Part shown: one piece after another, positions 227-7,929 of the stretch
Layout: every line of letters starts with the position of its first letter
Position numbering within the stretch: position 1 is the first letter of the stretch
Origin: Acidaminococcus hominis
GTDB taxonomy: Bacteria > Bacillota > Negativicutes > Acidaminococcales > Acidaminococcaceae
Assembly: GCF_900291475.1 (NCBI RefSeq)
Contig: NZ_OLMM01000005.1
Coordinates: forward strand, 366,592-430,591
Length of the DNA: 64,000 nucleotides
Direction: 5' to 3'
Made by a program: the position numbers and the translations under genes
The notes under the pieces: model-generated
Seen by the model: only the letters and a program-made list of their open reading frames with translations
Databases searched by the model: none
Told to the model about the DNA's origin: nothing

Positions 227-290
227 TTATAAGCGGCTTTTAGGATTTTTTTGACTTGAGTCTAGTGTAAAGTAAGCGAGGTGTTAAGGA

Positions 291-452
291 ATGGCAGCTG
301 GAAACCGTGTAGGTATTACCCTGGCTTGCACTGAGTGCAAACAGCGTAACTATCAAACTACGAAGAATAAGAAAAACGATACTGAACGGATCGAAATCAA
401 CAAGTATTGCAAATTCTGCAAGAAGCATACGTTGCATAAAGAAACGAAATAA
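291..452 (+). CDS. rpmG: 50S ribosomal protein L33
   Basis: A 53-codon gene for the small zinc-ribbon ribosomal protein L33. It has the two metal-binding knuckles CTEC (residues 13-16) and CKFC (residues 40-43), so this is the zinc-binding (C+) form. The ATG has a purine-rich site (GTTAAGGA) upstream. It is followed closely by secE and nusG, the standard arrangement. Length and sequence are typical. Confidence 0.95.
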
Positions 453-2613: not shown

Positions 2614-3147
2614 ATGCATGATATTAGACCTGAGAAAGCTAGTAAAGTTGCAGAACTGAAAGAATTACTGGCTGGTTCTAAAGGTGTGGTTCTGGTTGAC
2701 TACTGCGGCCTGTCCGTAGCTGAAGATACCGAACTGAGAAGCAAAATGCGTGAAGCCGGTATTAAATACATGGTTGCCAAGAATACGTTTGTACGTATTG
2801 CTGCGCAGGAAGCTGGTATTGAAGGCCTGGATGCTTATCTGGAACACAATACCGCTCTGGCCTTCGCCCCTGAAGACCCTGTTGCTCCTGCTAAAATCCT
2901 CAACGATTTCAGCAAGGATCATAAAGCTCTGGAACTGAAAGCCGGCATTTTGGACGGCGCCGTAATCGGCGTTGACGAAGTAAAGGCTCTGGCAGAACTG
3001 CCGTCCAGAGAAGAACTGCTGGCCAAACTGGTTGGCAGCATGCAGGCCCCTCTGTCCGGCCTGGTCAACGTTCTCCAAGGCACGATCCGCAATGCCGTAT
3101 ATGTCCTGGAGGCCGTACGTCAAAAGAAAGAGCAGGAAACTGCTTAA
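2614..3147 (+). CDS. rplJ: 50S ribosomal protein L10
   Basis: A 177-residue L10, the base of the L7/L12 stalk. An upstream ATT-initiated reading is possible, but the ATG at 2614 sits about 8 nt behind AAGGAGGTG (2598-2606) and gives the usual start MHDIRPEKASKVAELKELL. The C-terminal helix that holds L12 dimers is residues ~140-175. Expression is likely set by the L10 leader just upstream. Confidence 0.95.
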   Translation: MHDIRPEKASKVAELKELLAGSKGVVLVDYCGLSVAEDTELRSKMREAGIKYMVAKNTFVRIAAQEAGIEGLDAYLEHNTALAFAPEDPVAPAKILNDFSKDHKALELKAGILDGAVIGVDEVKALAELPSREELLAKLVGSMQAPLSGLVNVLQGTIRNAVYVLEAVRQKKEQETA

Positions 3148-3212
3148 TTCACTTGCAGGCTGAATCCGCAGCCTGACAACCATTTCATTTAAAAATTTTG
3201 GAGGTATTTACA

Positions 3213-3578
3213 ATGGATAAAGATCAAATTCTGCAAGCCATCGAAAGCATGACTGTTCTGGAACTGGCTGACCTGGTAAAAGCTATGGAAGAAAAATTCG
3301 GCGTGAGCGCTGCTGCTCCCGTTGCTGTTGCTGCTGCTCCTGCTGCTGGCGCTGCTGCTGCTGAAAAGACCGAATTCAACGTTGTACTGACCGATGTTGG
3401 TGCTAGCAAGATCAACGTTATCAAAGTTGTTCGCGAACTGACCGGCCTGGGCCTGAAGGAAGCTAAAGCTGCTGTTGATGCTGCTCCTAACACCCTGAAA
3501 GAAAACGTTTCCAAAGCTGATGCTGAAGCCATGAAAGCTAAACTGGAAGAAGCTGGCGCTAAAGTAGAACTGAAATAA
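3213..3578 (+). CDS. rplL: 50S ribosomal protein L7/L12
   Basis: A 121-residue L7/L12, the multicopy stalk protein that recruits translation GTPases. It shows the N-terminal dimerisation helices, an Ala-rich hinge (about residues 34-52) and the conserved C-terminal domain ([21 protein letters not shown] is at about 79-99). The ATG at 3213 follows TTGGAGGTA at good spacing, so the in-frame codons upstream were left out. It ends the ribosomal operon. Confidence 0.97.
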
Positions 3579-3709: not shown

Positions 3710-3738
3710 TTGACAAAATCCCCCTTGCATAGTAGGAT
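3710..3738 (+). promoter_or_regulatory. Promoter of the metNIQ T-box transcript
   Basis: TTGACA (3710-3715), a 17-nt spacer and TAGGAT (3733-3738). The predicted start near 3745 is just before the T-box leader. The 80 nt before it (3631-3709) hold nothing I recognise. Confidence 0.75.
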
Positions 3739-3744
3739 ATATGC

Positions 3745-3985
3745 ATACGCGAAAAGCAATGACCGGAATAAGTAAGTTTGGGCTAGCCCCACAGAGAGTC
3801 CTGCAAGGGTGAGAGCAGGGCGGTGCAAAACCAGGCCGAATGCCTCCGGGAGCTGAAAGGCCGAAAGTTCCAGTAGGCCTTTACGGGGTGGCAGCCGTTA
3901 TACTGCGCTTGAGGCTGACCTTTGGGCCGGCAAAACAGAGTGGAACCACGGACCACCGTCTCTGCAGACGGGGGTTCTTTTTTTA
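3745..3985 (+). promoter_or_regulatory. T-box riboswitch upstream of metNIQ, probably cysteine-specific
   Basis: The T-box sequence AGAGTGGAACCACGG (3938-3952) is followed by a terminator stem (about 3950-3977) and a T-run. Stem I elements include GAGAG and GGTGAGAG segments in the distal arm. The specifier region reads GAA-TGC-CTCC at 3838-3847. Aligned with the trp leader of this window (AAA-TGG-ACC), the codon is TGC (Cys, 3841-3843); ATG (Met, 3840-3842) is the out-of-register alternative. The TGGA of the T-box would pair with a tRNA ending U73-CCA, which fits tRNA-Cys and not the usual A73 of tRNA-Met. Confidence 0.85.
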
Positions 3986-4038
3986 TACCCTGACGGGTTT
4001 GGTTCCTTCTGAATTTATCTTTTCAGGAGGTGCAGGAA

Positions 4039-4152
4039 TTGAAAAAATGGCATTTGCTTCCCTGCTGCGGGGGAACCCGCTGCTGTAGACAGCAGGACAT
4101 GCGGTCCTGCCTCCAGAAACTATTTGCTGCTGCAGAGGTGTCGGTACAATGA
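4039..4152 (+). CDS. Cys-rich 37-codon leader ORF overlapping metN
   Basis: A TTG codon at 4039 lies 8 nt behind a strong CAGGAGGTG (4024-4032) and opens a 37-codon frame with five cysteines arranged CC (9,10), CC (15,16) and C (24). It ends in a TGA that overlaps the metN ATG as ATGA, so translation of the two is probably coupled. The peptide has no recognisable domain. metN itself has only a weak GAGGTG site, and TGCCTC inside the ORF (about 4112-4117) can pair with it. A role as a cysteine-sensing leader peptide is inferred. Confidence 0.6.
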   Translation: MKKWHLLPCCGGTRCCRQQDMRSCLQKLFAAAEVSVQ

Positions 4153-5174
4153 TTGAATTCCAAGATGTCAGTAAGACATTCCACTTAAAAAATGTTGAAG
4201 TACAGGCTCTTTCCCATGTGAACCTTACGGTAGAGAAGGGGGATATTTTTGGCGTCATCGGTTTCAGCGGCGCTGGAAAATCTACTTTGCTCCGGATGGT
4301 CAACGCTTTGGAAACTCCCACGGAGGGTCATGTGGTGATCAACGGGCAGACCATTGATACCCTGAACCACCAGGACCTGCGTCTGGTGCGGAAGAATGTA
4401 GGGATGATTTTCCAGCAGTTCAACCTGCTGGGTTCCAAAACGGTGTACGAGAATGTGGCCATTCCCCTGCGGCTCAATAAGATTGAGAATGCTGCGGTGG
4501 ACCAAATCGTCAAAACCCTGCTGAAATTTGTCAGCCTGGACGACAAGGCTCATGCTTATCCCGGGCAGCTGTCAGGCGGTCAGAAACAGCGGGTGGGCAT
4601 TGCCCGGGCTCTGGCTACCAATCCGTCCATTCTGTTGTGCGATGAGGCCACCAGTGCCTTGGACCCGGAAACCACGGACCAGATTTTGGACCTGCTGCGA
4701 AAAATCAATAAGGAGCTGAAAATCACCATCTTGTTTGTGACCCACCAGATTCAGGTGATTCAGCAGCTGTGCAACAAGGTGGCGGTTATGGAACTGGGCA
4801 AGGTGGTGGAAAGCGGTTCCGTCCTGGACGTATTCAGCGATCCCCAGCAGCCCATGACCAAGAAGTTCGTTCGGACGGTTATTCCGGATACCATTCCCAA
4901 GAGCATTCAGGAAAAATTAAAGAAGGAAACCCGGCCCTACAAGCTGCTGAAACTGCGGTTTTTGGGAGACCAGGCTTCGGAAGGCACCATTTGGGAACTG
5001 AACCAGAAGTTCGGCTTGCAGACGGATATCGTGTTTGCCAATGTTTGTGAATTGCAGCAGACAGCCCTGGGACTATTTACCCTACAGGTGATTGATGAAG
5101 GGGATAAGCTCCAGAAGGCGGAAGCATATCTGACCCAGCAGGGGATTTTGTGGAAGGAGGTGTCCCTGTCATGA
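4149..5174 (+). CDS. metN: MetNIQ-type ABC importer, ATP-binding subunit
   Basis: A 341-residue ATPase of the methionine-uptake ABC family. Walker A GFSGAGKST is at residues 38-46, the signature LSGGQKQR starts at 141, Walker B LLCDEATSAL is near 160, and a C-terminal NIL ligand-sensing domain (about 265-341) gives feedback inhibition in characterised members. The start overlaps the leader ORF stop and the end overlaps metI by ATGA. The family imports L- and D-methionine, and some members take other sulfur compounds. The apparent cysteine T-box makes cyst(e)ine a candidate substrate here. Confidence 0.92.
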   Translation: MIEFQDVSKTFHLKNVEVQALSHVNLTVEKGDIFGVIGFSGAGKSTLLRMVNALETPTEGHVVINGQTIDTLNHQDLRLVRKNVGMIFQQFNLLGSKTVYENVAIPLRLNKIENAAVDQIVKTLLKFVSLDDKAHAYPGQLSGGQKQRVGIARALATNPSILLCDEATSALDPETTDQILDLLRKINKELKITILFVTHQIQVIQQLCNKVAVMELGKVVESGSVLDVFSDPQQPMTKKFVRTVIPDTIPKSIQEKLKKETRPYKLLKLRFLGDQASEGTIWELNQKFGLQTDIVFANVCELQQTALGLFTLQVIDEGDKLQKAEAYLTQQGILWKEVSLS

Positions 5175-5833
5175 TTGAACAATTGGGCGTACCGGCTTCC
5201 CGCTTGATCCTGGCGGCGGAGCAGACCTTGTACATGGTGTTTATTTCCCTGTTTATCGGCACCGTGATAGCCATGATTTTGGCAGTGACACTGGTGCTTA
5301 CCAATCCCAACGGGATTCTCCATAACCGGGTGATTTCCGGGGTTTTGAATACCATTATCAATGTGATTCGGAGTATTCCTTTCATCATCCTGATGGTGTT
5401 CATTATGCCCCTTACCAAAGCCCTTATAGGGACCCGGATTGGGACCACGGCGGCCCTGGTGCCCCTGGTGATTTTCATCGCCCCCTATCTTACCCGGCTG
5501 TTTGAAAACTCCATTTTGGAGGTGGACCGGGGGATTGTGGAAGCAGCCCAGGCCATGGGAGCCAGCTATTTTGAGATTGTCTGGTACTTCCTATTGCCGG
5601 AAGCCAAGGGATCCCTGATCTTGTCGGTGACCACCGGCACCATCGGACTTATTGGTGCCACGGCCATGGCCGGTGCCATTGGGGCTGGCGGCGTAGGCGA
5701 CCTGGCCTTGACCTACGGCTACGAAAGAATGAATACCCCGCTGATGCTGTTTACAGTGGTGGTCCTGATTATTTTTGTGCAGATTATCCAAACCATCGGC
5801 AATCATTTTGCCTATAAAACAAGAAATCATTAA
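5171..5833 (+). CDS. metI: MetNIQ-type ABC importer, permease
   Basis: A 220-residue MetI-family permease with about five transmembrane helices. The EAA loop that docks to the ATPase is visible (EAAQAMGASYFEIVW, about residues 129-143). The ATG at 5171 overlaps the metN stop as ATGA and follows AAGGAGGTG, so the upstream in-frame codons are not used. metQ follows 22 nt after. Confidence 0.93.
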   Translation: MIEQLGVPASRLILAAEQTLYMVFISLFIGTVIAMILAVTLVLTNPNGILHNRVISGVLNTIINVIRSIPFIILMVFIMPLTKALIGTRIGTTAALVPLVIFIAPYLTRLFENSILEVDRGIVEAAQAMGASYFEIVWYFLLPEAKGSLILSVTTGTIGLIGATAMAGAIGAGGVGDLALTYGYERMNTPLMLFTVVVLIIFVQIIQTIGNHFAYKTRNH

Positions 5834-5855: not shown

Positions 5856-6686
5856 ATGAAAAACTGGAAAAAGTGGCTGGTTGTGGCCTTGGCGGCAATT
5901 ATGAGCACGGCGGTGCTGGCAGGCTGCGGAGACAGCAGCAAAGATACGGGCAGCAAGAAGGAACTCACCTACAGCAAATCCCAGGGACCCTATTCTGACC
6001 TGTTCGAAAAGGGCGTAAAACCCATTTTGGAAAAGAAGGGGTATAAGATTACCGGTAAGGATATGTCCGACCTGCTCCAGGCCGATATTGCCCTGAATGA
6101 AGGGGAAGTGGACTTTAACGTAGAGCAGCATATAGCCTATATGGATAACTTCAATAAGAAGCAGGGCGGCCATTTGGCAGCCATCACTCCTATTCCCACT
6201 GTTCCGGCTGGCATCTACGCCGGTTCTAAGACCAAGCTGGACCAAGTAGCCGACGGGGATACCATTGCGGTTCCCAACGATGCTTCCAATACGGCAAGAG
6301 CCTATGCGCTGCTGCAAAAAGCTGGGTGGATTAAACTGGATCCCAAAAAGGACCTGTCCACGGTAACCATGCAGGATATTGTGGAGAATCCCCACAATCT
6401 GAAATTCGTGGAAATGAAGTCCCTGAATATCCCGGCTGTACGGGGTGATTTCGACTACATCGTCATTACCGGTTCCATTGTGTACAACGCCAAGATTGAC
6501 CCCTCCACGGCGCTTATGAAGGAAGATATCCTGCCCCATCTGCTACTGCAGCTGGTGGTAGCCGACAAGAACAAGAATGCCCAATGGGTAAAGGACATTG
6601 CGGATGCCTACCATTCCGAAGCCTTCAAGGAATACCTGAAGAAGAACAACAACGGCCTGTGGTATGATCCCGATACGAAAAAATAA
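5856..6686 (+). CDS. metQ: MetQ/NlpA-family substrate-binding lipoprotein
   Basis: A 276-residue lipoprotein that captures substrate outside the membrane for MetNI. The signal peptide ends in a canonical lipobox LAGC with Cys24 as the lipidated residue. The mature domain carries the NlpA fold (KGVKPILEKKGYKITGKDM..., VPNDASNTARAYALLQKAGW). I chose ATG 5856, behind TATGGAGGCG, over an in-frame upstream ATG inside metI. It is the last gene of the metNIQ unit before a hairpin. Confidence 0.93.
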   Translation: MKNWKKWLVVALAAIMSTAVLAGCGDSSKDTGSKKELTYSKSQGPYSDLFEKGVKPILEKKGYKITGKDMSDLLQADIALNEGEVDFNVEQHIAYMDNFNKKQGGHLAAITPIPTVPAGIYAGSKTKLDQVADGDTIAVPNDASNTARAYALLQKAGWIKLDPKKDLSTVTMQDIVENPHNLKFVEMKSLNIPAVRGDFDYIVITGSIVYNAKIDPSTALMKEDILPHLLLQLVVADKNKNAQWVKDIADAYHSEAFKEYLKKNNNGLWYDPDTKK

Positions 6687-6747: not shown

Positions 6748-7929
6748 ATGAACGTAGAAGAACAAGTACAGCAGCTTCAGCAGGAACTGGTTACCCTGCG
6801 CCGGGATTTTCATACCCATCCGGAACAGTCCTGGCAGGAATTTGGCACCCAGGAAAAAATCCTGAACTACTTGGAAAAGCTGGGCATTCCTGCAGTAAAG
6901 GCGGCCAAAACCGGCGTTATTGGCACCATCAAAGGGAAAAAAGCTTCGGACAAGATTCTGGGCATCCGGGCAGATATTGATGCCCTGCCCATTACAGAAC
7001 TGAACGAAACGTCCTACAAATCCCAAAACCCCGGCACCATGCACGCCTGCGGCCATGATACCCACATTACCATTCTTTTGGGTACGGCCAAAATTTTGGC
7101 CGGTCTGAAGGATGAATTGCCGGTTACCGTCCGGCTGATTTTCCAGCCGGCAGAAGAATACATTGCGGACAGCGGGGCGGCCCATATGAAAAATGAACCA
7201 TTGGTCAAGGAATGTGACCGGATTATCGCCCTGCATATCTGGGGACTGATTCCTGTAGGGTATGCCTCCCTGCGGGTGGGACCGGTGATGAGTGCAGCGG
7301 ATACCTTTGACATTTACGTAGAAGGGAAGGGGGGCCATGGGGCCCAGCCCCACCAGGCCATCGATCCCATTGTGGCGGCCTCGGAATTTGTGACCACCCT
7401 GCAAACCGTGGTCAGCCGGGAAATCAGTGCCTTAGAGCCGGCTGTACTCAGTGTTACTTCCTTTCAGGCGGGGACCACTTCCAATGTGATTCCGGCGGAG
7501 GCTCATCTACAGGGGACTGCCAGGACCTTTAATCCCCAGCTGCGGCAGGAATACCCGGGAATCCTGGAGCGGGTGGCCAGAGGCGTAGGCGAAGCCTCCC
7601 GGACCCAAATCCGGGTGGACTACCACTTTGGCACGCCGCCCATGATCAACGACAAGGCCTGTGTGGAAACGGGGCTGAAGGCCTGCCAAAAGGTTTTTGA
7701 TCCGGCAAAGATTGTAGAATGGGACCTGCAAATGGGGGGCGAAGATTTCGCCAAGTATGAGGCACCCAAGTGCATCTTGCTGCTGGGGGGCGGCGTGCCC
7801 GACGAGAAGGAACGTCATGCCCAGCACAATCCCTACTTTGATGTAGATGAACGGGCTTTGGGCCTGGGGGTTCAGTACTTTGTGCAATATGTGCTGTGTT
7901 ATGGCGCAGAAACCCAAAACAGTAAATAG
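6748..7929 (+). CDS. M20-family amidohydrolase (N-acyl-amino-acid/hippurate hydrolase type)
   Basis: A 393-residue M20D metal-dependent amidohydrolase that hydrolyses N-acylated amino acids or related amides. Visible signatures are HTHPEQSWQEF (residues ~22-32), ADIDALPITE, the metal site MHACGHDTHIT (~94-104) and QPAEE with the catalytic Glu. There is no signal peptide, so it is cytoplasmic. It lies 61 nt after metQ behind a weak hairpin, which suggests it deacylates a substrate brought in by that transporter; this is inference. Confidence 0.9.
   Translation: MNVEEQVQQLQQELVTLRRDFHTHPEQSWQEFGTQEKILNYLEKLGIPAVKAAKTGVIGTIKGKKASDKILGIRADIDALPITELNETSYKSQNPGTMHACGHDTHITILLGTAKILAGLKDELPVTVRLIFQPAEEYIADSGAAHMKNEPLVKECDRIIALHIWGLIPVGYASLRVGPVMSAADTFDIYVEGKGGHGAQPHQAIDPIVAASEFVTTLQTVVSREISALEPAVLSVTSFQAGTTSNVIPAEAHLQGTARTFNPQLRQEYPGILERVARGVGEASRTQIRVDYHFGTPPMINDKACVETGLKACQKVFDPAKIVEWDLQMGGEDFAKYEAPKCILLLGGGVPDEKERHAQHNPYFDVDERALGLGVQYFVQYVLCYGAETQNSK

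Follow-up and report, generated by a model that had tools for sequence, protein, structure and literature searches.

Cysteine-specific T-boxes on transporter genes and tandem T-boxes on metNIQ are both already known, as far as the available portions of three papers go (PMC2940859, PMC6004538, PMC12452182). In Clostridium perfringens, Cys T-boxes precede cysK, cysP1, cysP2 and ubiG (PMC2940859). Lactobacillus paracasei has a Cys T-box before the ABC importer glnP2-glnM2-artM2-glnH4, expression of which is higher in cysteine-deficient than in methionine-deficient medium (PMC6004538). Tandem T-boxes have been described before metN-metI-metQ in Bacillota, where close to a third of the operons, though not quite that many, contain amhX, encoding a COG1473 amidohydrolase (PMC12452182). 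A search by title, run without two comparative T-box surveys, returned no paper on a Cys T-box before metNIQ in the genus studied here. Short ORFs have been connected with cysteine as well: in 2020 Canestrari et al. reportedly described mycobacterial polycysteine leaderless short ORFs that respond to cysteine.

We have analyzed a 64,000-nt stretch of Acidaminococcus hominis DNA (NZ_OLMM01000005.1, positions 366,592-430,591 of the forward strand), referred to below as the window; coordinates are those of the window unless another locus is named, and the operon and the parts of its leader lie on the plus strand of the window. The operon under study has the make-up of a MetNIQ system, with an ATPase carrying a NIL domain, a permease and an NlpA-type lipoprotein encoded together: a metN-like gene for an ABC ATPase with a C-terminal NIL domain (4149-5174; PF00005, PF09383), a metI-like permease gene that overlaps metN through an ATGA (5171-5833; PF00528), and a metQ-like gene for a binding lipoprotein with an altered methionine pocket (5856-6686; PF03180). 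The next gene downstream, at 6748-7929, encodes an M20 family amidohydrolase (TIGR01891, 335.9 bits, above the cut-off; PF01546). In NCBIfam scoring MetN reaches 348 bits of the 499.7 required by the TIGR02314 equivalog model, MetI 175.3 of 212 (NF008049) and MetQ 108.5 of 228.85 (TIGR00363). As controls we used a MetN linked to a SAM riboswitch (L029), which also misses the cut-off (439.8 of 499.7), and a paralogous MetQ (L197), which passes (238.1). Since the SAM-riboswitch-linked MetN fails too, only the MetQ result discriminates, and we have dropped the NCBIfam cut-offs as proof against a methionine-type MetN.

Upstream of metN, the T-box covariance model (Rfam RF00230) matches over its whole length, model positions 1-219 of 219, at 3750-3966 with 104.3 bits (gathering score 93) and an E-value of 5.9e-22. 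A sequence-only reading of this locus had recognized a T-box by a GAA-TGC-CTCC specifier region and a TGGA, and so it proved: the UGC specifier codon for Cys lies at 3841-3843, the same position as in the calibrated T-boxes of this genome (see below), and at 3941-3944 the T-box sequence has its UGGA, the complement of the UCCA of tRNA-Cys (U73-CCA). An intrinsic terminator (stem plus T run) with an antiterminator alternative extends over 3943-3984, 5' of metN, with terminator-like sites at 3956-3971 and 3958-3975 and an outer GAACC/GGTTC pairing that was read from the sequence. Directly 5' of the leader is a promoter-like pair, TTGACA-17-TAGGAT (3710-3738), which is weak by itself: the consensus scan found one such pair against 0.7 expected in shuffles. 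The window also contains an L10 ribosomal leader at 2459-2585 (RF00557, 45.2 bits; cut-off 44), located 5' of an rplJ-looking ORF.

We consider it very likely that an ordinary transcriptional tRNA-Cys T-box controls this MetNIQ-type operon and that a Cys-containing ORF located between the T-box and metN is, most probably, a by-product of the spacer. Going by established T-box knowledge, uncharged tRNA-Cys would pair through its GCA anticodon with the UGC specifier and through its UCCA end with UGGA; binding would favor the antiterminator and allow transcription of metNIQ, while charged tRNA-Cys would leave the terminator at 3943-3984 to form.

The specifier assignment was calibrated on the T-boxes of the same genome. 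There are 13 besides that of the window, and 11 were usable: L014 (glyQ-like by sequence) is a short 106-nt match without a visible specifier, and L012, a second Cys-type T-box, has no downstream gene of known amino acid. The rule applied was that the specifier is followed by one base and then by the basal helix strand, with downstream genes named via NCBIfam. Wherever the specifier could be read and the amino acid of the gene was known, the two were cognate (11/11): ilvC AUC, ilvB CUC, valS GUC, pheS UUC, thrS ACC, leuA CUG, metA AUG, ileS AUC, serA UCC, leuC CUC and trpE UGG. They were read by eye; for leuA the specifier columns of the Rfam alignment contain AAC, CUG being the rule-based reading, and those of leuC and trpE likewise come from the rule. 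Applied to the window T-box, the rule yields UGC, that is, Cys. Typing of 59/59 tRNA matches in the genome identified a single tRNA-Cys, with anticodon GCA and a U73-CCA end, which was recovered by the tRNA family search and gave no match in the pattern search. In 11 of 12 other T-boxes of this genome (the 11 calibrated ones and L014), UGGN is Watson-Crick complementary to the cognate discriminator, the exception being trpE with a wobble pair (UGGU vs G73). The UGGA of the window fits the U73-CCA end of tRNA-Cys, as expected for Cys and unlike Met. Could the T-box nevertheless sense tRNA-Met, with the ATG one base upstream of TGC as the specifier? The operon type bears the name of methionine, and ATG is indeed contained in GAATGCC. 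However, the Met T-box before metA (L008) in the same genome carries AUG at the calibrated position together with UGGU; tRNA-Met has A73 in the discriminator table, at odds with UGGA; and in the orthologous leader L022 the specifier context reads AAGTGCA (AAG-TGC-A), in which the surrounding bases have changed and ATG is gone, and TGC is retained. Calibration, U73 and L022 together rule out the Met specifier, to which we give practically no chance, and bear out the choice of TGC over ATG made from the sequence. A cysteine-specific T-box is thus strongly supported by the own-genome calibration, by the U73 of tRNA-Cys and by the orthologous Cys T-boxes.

This metN is present in eight of nine genomes of the genus that were searched, the ninth (G007) being 85% complete, and in all eight the orthologous metN is preceded by a Cys T-box; that of L022 scores 80 bits, below the gathering score of 93, with an E-value of 1.2e-15. 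Two of the eight loci carry tandem T-box pairs before the orthologous metNIQ. In L019 the Cys T-boxes lie at 2624-2843 and 3030-3248 (minus), in L020 at 829-1048 and 1177-1396, each with its own terminator-like T run. The TGC specifier and the TGGA T-box were seen in 14/14 T-boxes inspected: ten from the eight genus loci, three from a second genus, g17, and L012. Of 14 g17 genomes, 7 carry a metN closely related to this one (52-63% identity). At three of these loci (L032-L034) a T-box precedes an M20-like gene upstream of metN, the one in L034 scoring 88 bits and thus falling below the gathering score; at the other four (L035-L038) we found no T-box within 1.1-1.5 kb upstream of metN. Among 20 more distant MetN loci from other groups there was no T-box at gathering score and one SAM riboswitch. 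That only 3/7 g17 loci, and none of the 20 distant ones, have the T-box counts against the Cys T-box explanation.

The paralogous metN of the genus (L023-L031) has a SAM riboswitch at 9/9 loci. With a Cys T-box on one metN and a SAM riboswitch on its paralogue, the two importers appear to be wired to different signals: one of the two MetN paralogues is assigned cysteine, not methionine, as its regulatory signal. At the paralogous locus of A. hominis (L193) a metQ gene was not seen adjoining metNI, and in G005 (L025) group II intron pieces lie at 611-869 and 239-313 (minus), upstream of the SAM-riboswitch metN. The second Cys T-box of the A. hominis genome (L012:1501-1720; also L194) precedes a gene with a weak match to MtaA/CmuA-type methyltransferases (TIGR01463, 50.7 bits), 3' of which are genes that, by sequence alone, resemble a polar amino-acid ABC importer.

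What does the importer carry? Neisseria meningitidis MetQ contacts methionine through Y81, F98, H100, Y103, R156, N213 and N238, and its N238A variant binds L-methionine more than 10^5-fold more weakly (PMC6739813, available portion). At these positions the window MetQ has L, E, H, Y, R, T and L. This pattern is found in 10/10 T-box-linked MetQs compared, with M at the last site in L018, and at least four of the seven methionine-contact residues are changed in the T-box-linked group; the MetQ set included L224 and L225, second copies of two T-box-linked genes. In G003 (L226, C4:277500-286000; the locus of L022) two MetQ genes adjoin the T-box-linked metN. Both proteins have S at Y81, D at F98, W at Y103, R at R156 and R at N213; H100 is H in one and N in the other, and the Asn at N238 is missing. 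An acid at F98 combined with loss of the N213 and N238 asparagines is accordingly seen in 12/12 T-box-linked MetQs (window, L016-L021, L032-L034 and the two at L226), and the 27 other MetQ-like proteins compared within the genus show neither an acid at F98 nor L at Y81. Nine of these 27 (L196-L204) keep the canonical contact set, except that F98 is Met in L201; in these nine the N238 asparagine is one column off in the alignment (SPYANI). The pocket change is not wholly unique, since the T at N213 and the missing Asn at N238 are shared, in the alignment, by the eight members of one paralogue group (L206-L209, L212, L214-L216).

Loss of N238 together with an acid at F98 speaks against the usual mode of methionine binding, and the acid could hold the second ammonium group of cystine; as judged from the aligned residues, the altered pocket suggests a ligand other than methionine, for instance cyst(e)ine. 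Considered jointly with the Cys T-box and the neighboring amidohydrolase of the M20 family (TIGR01891), it points to cysteine, cystine or an N-acylated form as the compound taken up. Family names alone would point to a methionine (or metal) importer; the cysteine signal makes cysteine, cystine or a related sulfur compound the predicted cargo of this MetNIQ-type importer, and import of cysteine or cystine by the operon is what we infer.

Beyond the terminator, the sequence-only reading had noted a 37-codon ORF with Cys at codons 9, 10, 15, 16 and 24 (CC..CC), and it is there, starting with TTG, at 4039-4152; its TGA runs over the metN ATG in an ATGA overlap, likewise as described. Conservation of the ORF was a different matter. 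Measured from the T-box match to the start of the MetN match, the spacer of the window is 182 nt long, the longest among the leaders compared. In L016, L017 and L018, the three nearest relatives (MetN 77-79% identical), it is 45, 49 and 43 nt, and in L022, L019, L020 and L021 it is 52, 106, 104 and 133 nt, respectively; as the match to MetN starts at query residue 2 in L019 and L020, metN begins a few bases earlier there. Scanning the orthologous spacers for open frames of 8-150 codons with ATG, GTG or TTG as start codon, we found a counterpart in 0/7, the three nearest relatives included: ORF, frame and CC..CC codons are all missing. The highest Cys count in these spacers is three, reached in L020 by a frame of 54 codons extending into metN; the others have 0-1. 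When the leader peptide was searched against 59 family genomes in six frames, 21 of them gave a match with E no higher than 10, of which only the self-match is meaningful; the next best has E 0.016 at 38% identity. As there is no match in Pfam or NCBIfam and the best hit outside the own genome is this one, we rejected membership of a known peptide family. We also rejected the idea that the spacer (3970-4150) is a mobile repeat: its only full match in the genome is itself, and the 14 other matches listed are short or weak (best E 0.063).

The Cys content of the ORF is, taken alone, at most mildly unusual. In dinucleotide shuffles of its 114 nt, at least five Cys codons arise in the same frame in 7.8%, in any frame in 19% and in an open frame in 4.3% of cases, and 5 of 167 window ORFs of 30-45 codons, the leader ORF included, have five or more Cys. 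The ORF is most likely a by-product of a GC-rich, CTGCTG-rich spacer rather than a sensor, and probably without function. Its TTG follows a GAGGTG by 6 nt, as does the metN TTG in L016-L018, and the ORF start might derive from an old metN start, as a remnant or a copy, although the resemblance is very short.

Ribosome access was considered next to sequence. The strong ribosome site claimed for the ORF exists as a sequence, AGGAGG (4025-4030) placed 8 nt before the TTG, but is predicted to be buried: folding puts it in the 3' arm of a 9-bp hairpin (4005-4030; 4005-4013 paired with 4022-4030, -12.1 kcal/mol), with a computed probability of approximately 2e-6 that its six bases are free in free RNA. 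The metN Shine-Dalgarno, AGAGGTG (4134-4140), had been called weak, which its sequence contradicts: GAGGTG stands 8 nt from the ATG and also precedes metN in the three nearest relatives (L016-L018). In the predicted fold it is partly paired, all seven bases being free at 7.5e-4. The proposed pairing of TGCCTC, inside the ORF, with this site is feasible as an isolated duplex (-10.5 kcal/mol for CUGCCUC) but missing from the predicted folds, which place the CCUGC of that stretch into a local hairpin. By these predictions, spacer structure is mildly beyond chance. The segment 3980-4038 is more stable than 1976 of 2000 shuffles, with 24/2000 as good, and the stretch 3990-4190 has a z-score of -2.12, with 4/200 shuffles folding as well; the ORF-to-metN part alone (4046-4165) is ordinary (z -0.28). 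Because these stretches fold better than most shuffles, the spacer is perhaps not wholly functionless, a point against regarding spacer and ORF as incidental.

The sequence-only reading had joined these elements into two cysteine sensors in series, a T-box acting on transcription and a leader ORF in which stalling at Cys codons frees the metN ribosome site. The transcriptional half stands, by sequence; the translational half does not, given its absence from all seven orthologous leaders, an outcome that this reading had itself listed as refuting. An open frame with CC..CC, a well-placed AGGAGG, the ATGA overlap, the energetically feasible duplex and the partial pairing of the metN site speak for such a device. 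Yet in the other 58 family genomes the peptide finds nothing better than E 0.016, 7.8% of shuffles reach its Cys count, the ORF's own ribosome site is buried, the pairing does not appear in the predicted folds and the metN site is not weak by sequence, which makes the double sensor very improbable. An equally slim chance attaches to a hairpin-masked, Cys-rich ORF and long spacer added in this species alone as a second, translational cysteine check; here it matters that the nearest relatives available for comparison are 77-79% identical in MetN. Somewhat better placed, though still unlikely, is an ORF that is translated and senses nothing, a species-specific spacer peptide that couples translation into metN. 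The ATGA overlap, a junction seen between metN and metI as well, would serve this purpose, and in L020, too, an ORF of 16 codons, with one Cys and preceded by a Shine-Dalgarno, runs over the metN start; against it, the Shine-Dalgarno of the leader ORF is buried and metN has a GAGGTG of its own. We therefore retain the single tRNA-Cys T-box with an incidental ORF as the preferred explanation and have removed the double-sensor claim, attractive as it is, as unsupported.

How does this locus compare with the known systems? With the mycobacterial polycysteine ORFs it shares a Cys-rich upstream ORF; those are leaderless according to the title of the report, whereas the ORF of the window follows a T-box, its Shine-Dalgarno is predicted to be buried, and the relatives examined lack a counterpart. 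The Cys T-boxes of C. perfringens, in the text available, resemble that of the window in the AGAGTGGAACC motif, in the terminator and in having cyst(e)ine uptake genes among their targets, but the transporters there are the symporters CysP1 and CysP2, and here a MetNIQ-type ABC importer (PMC2940859). In L. paracasei, too, a TGC specifier lies 5' of an ABC amino-acid importer; that importer is of the polar amino-acid type, and the metQ genes of that organism carry Met T-boxes (PMC6004538, available portion). The metNIQ operons of Bacillota likewise combine T-box control with an amidohydrolase neighbor, and their tandem arrangement recurs in L019 and L020. In the available text those operons are termed metal-ion transport and the specifier is unstated (PMC12452182), whereas the window carries just one T-box, and Cys is the reading in all 14 that we inspected.
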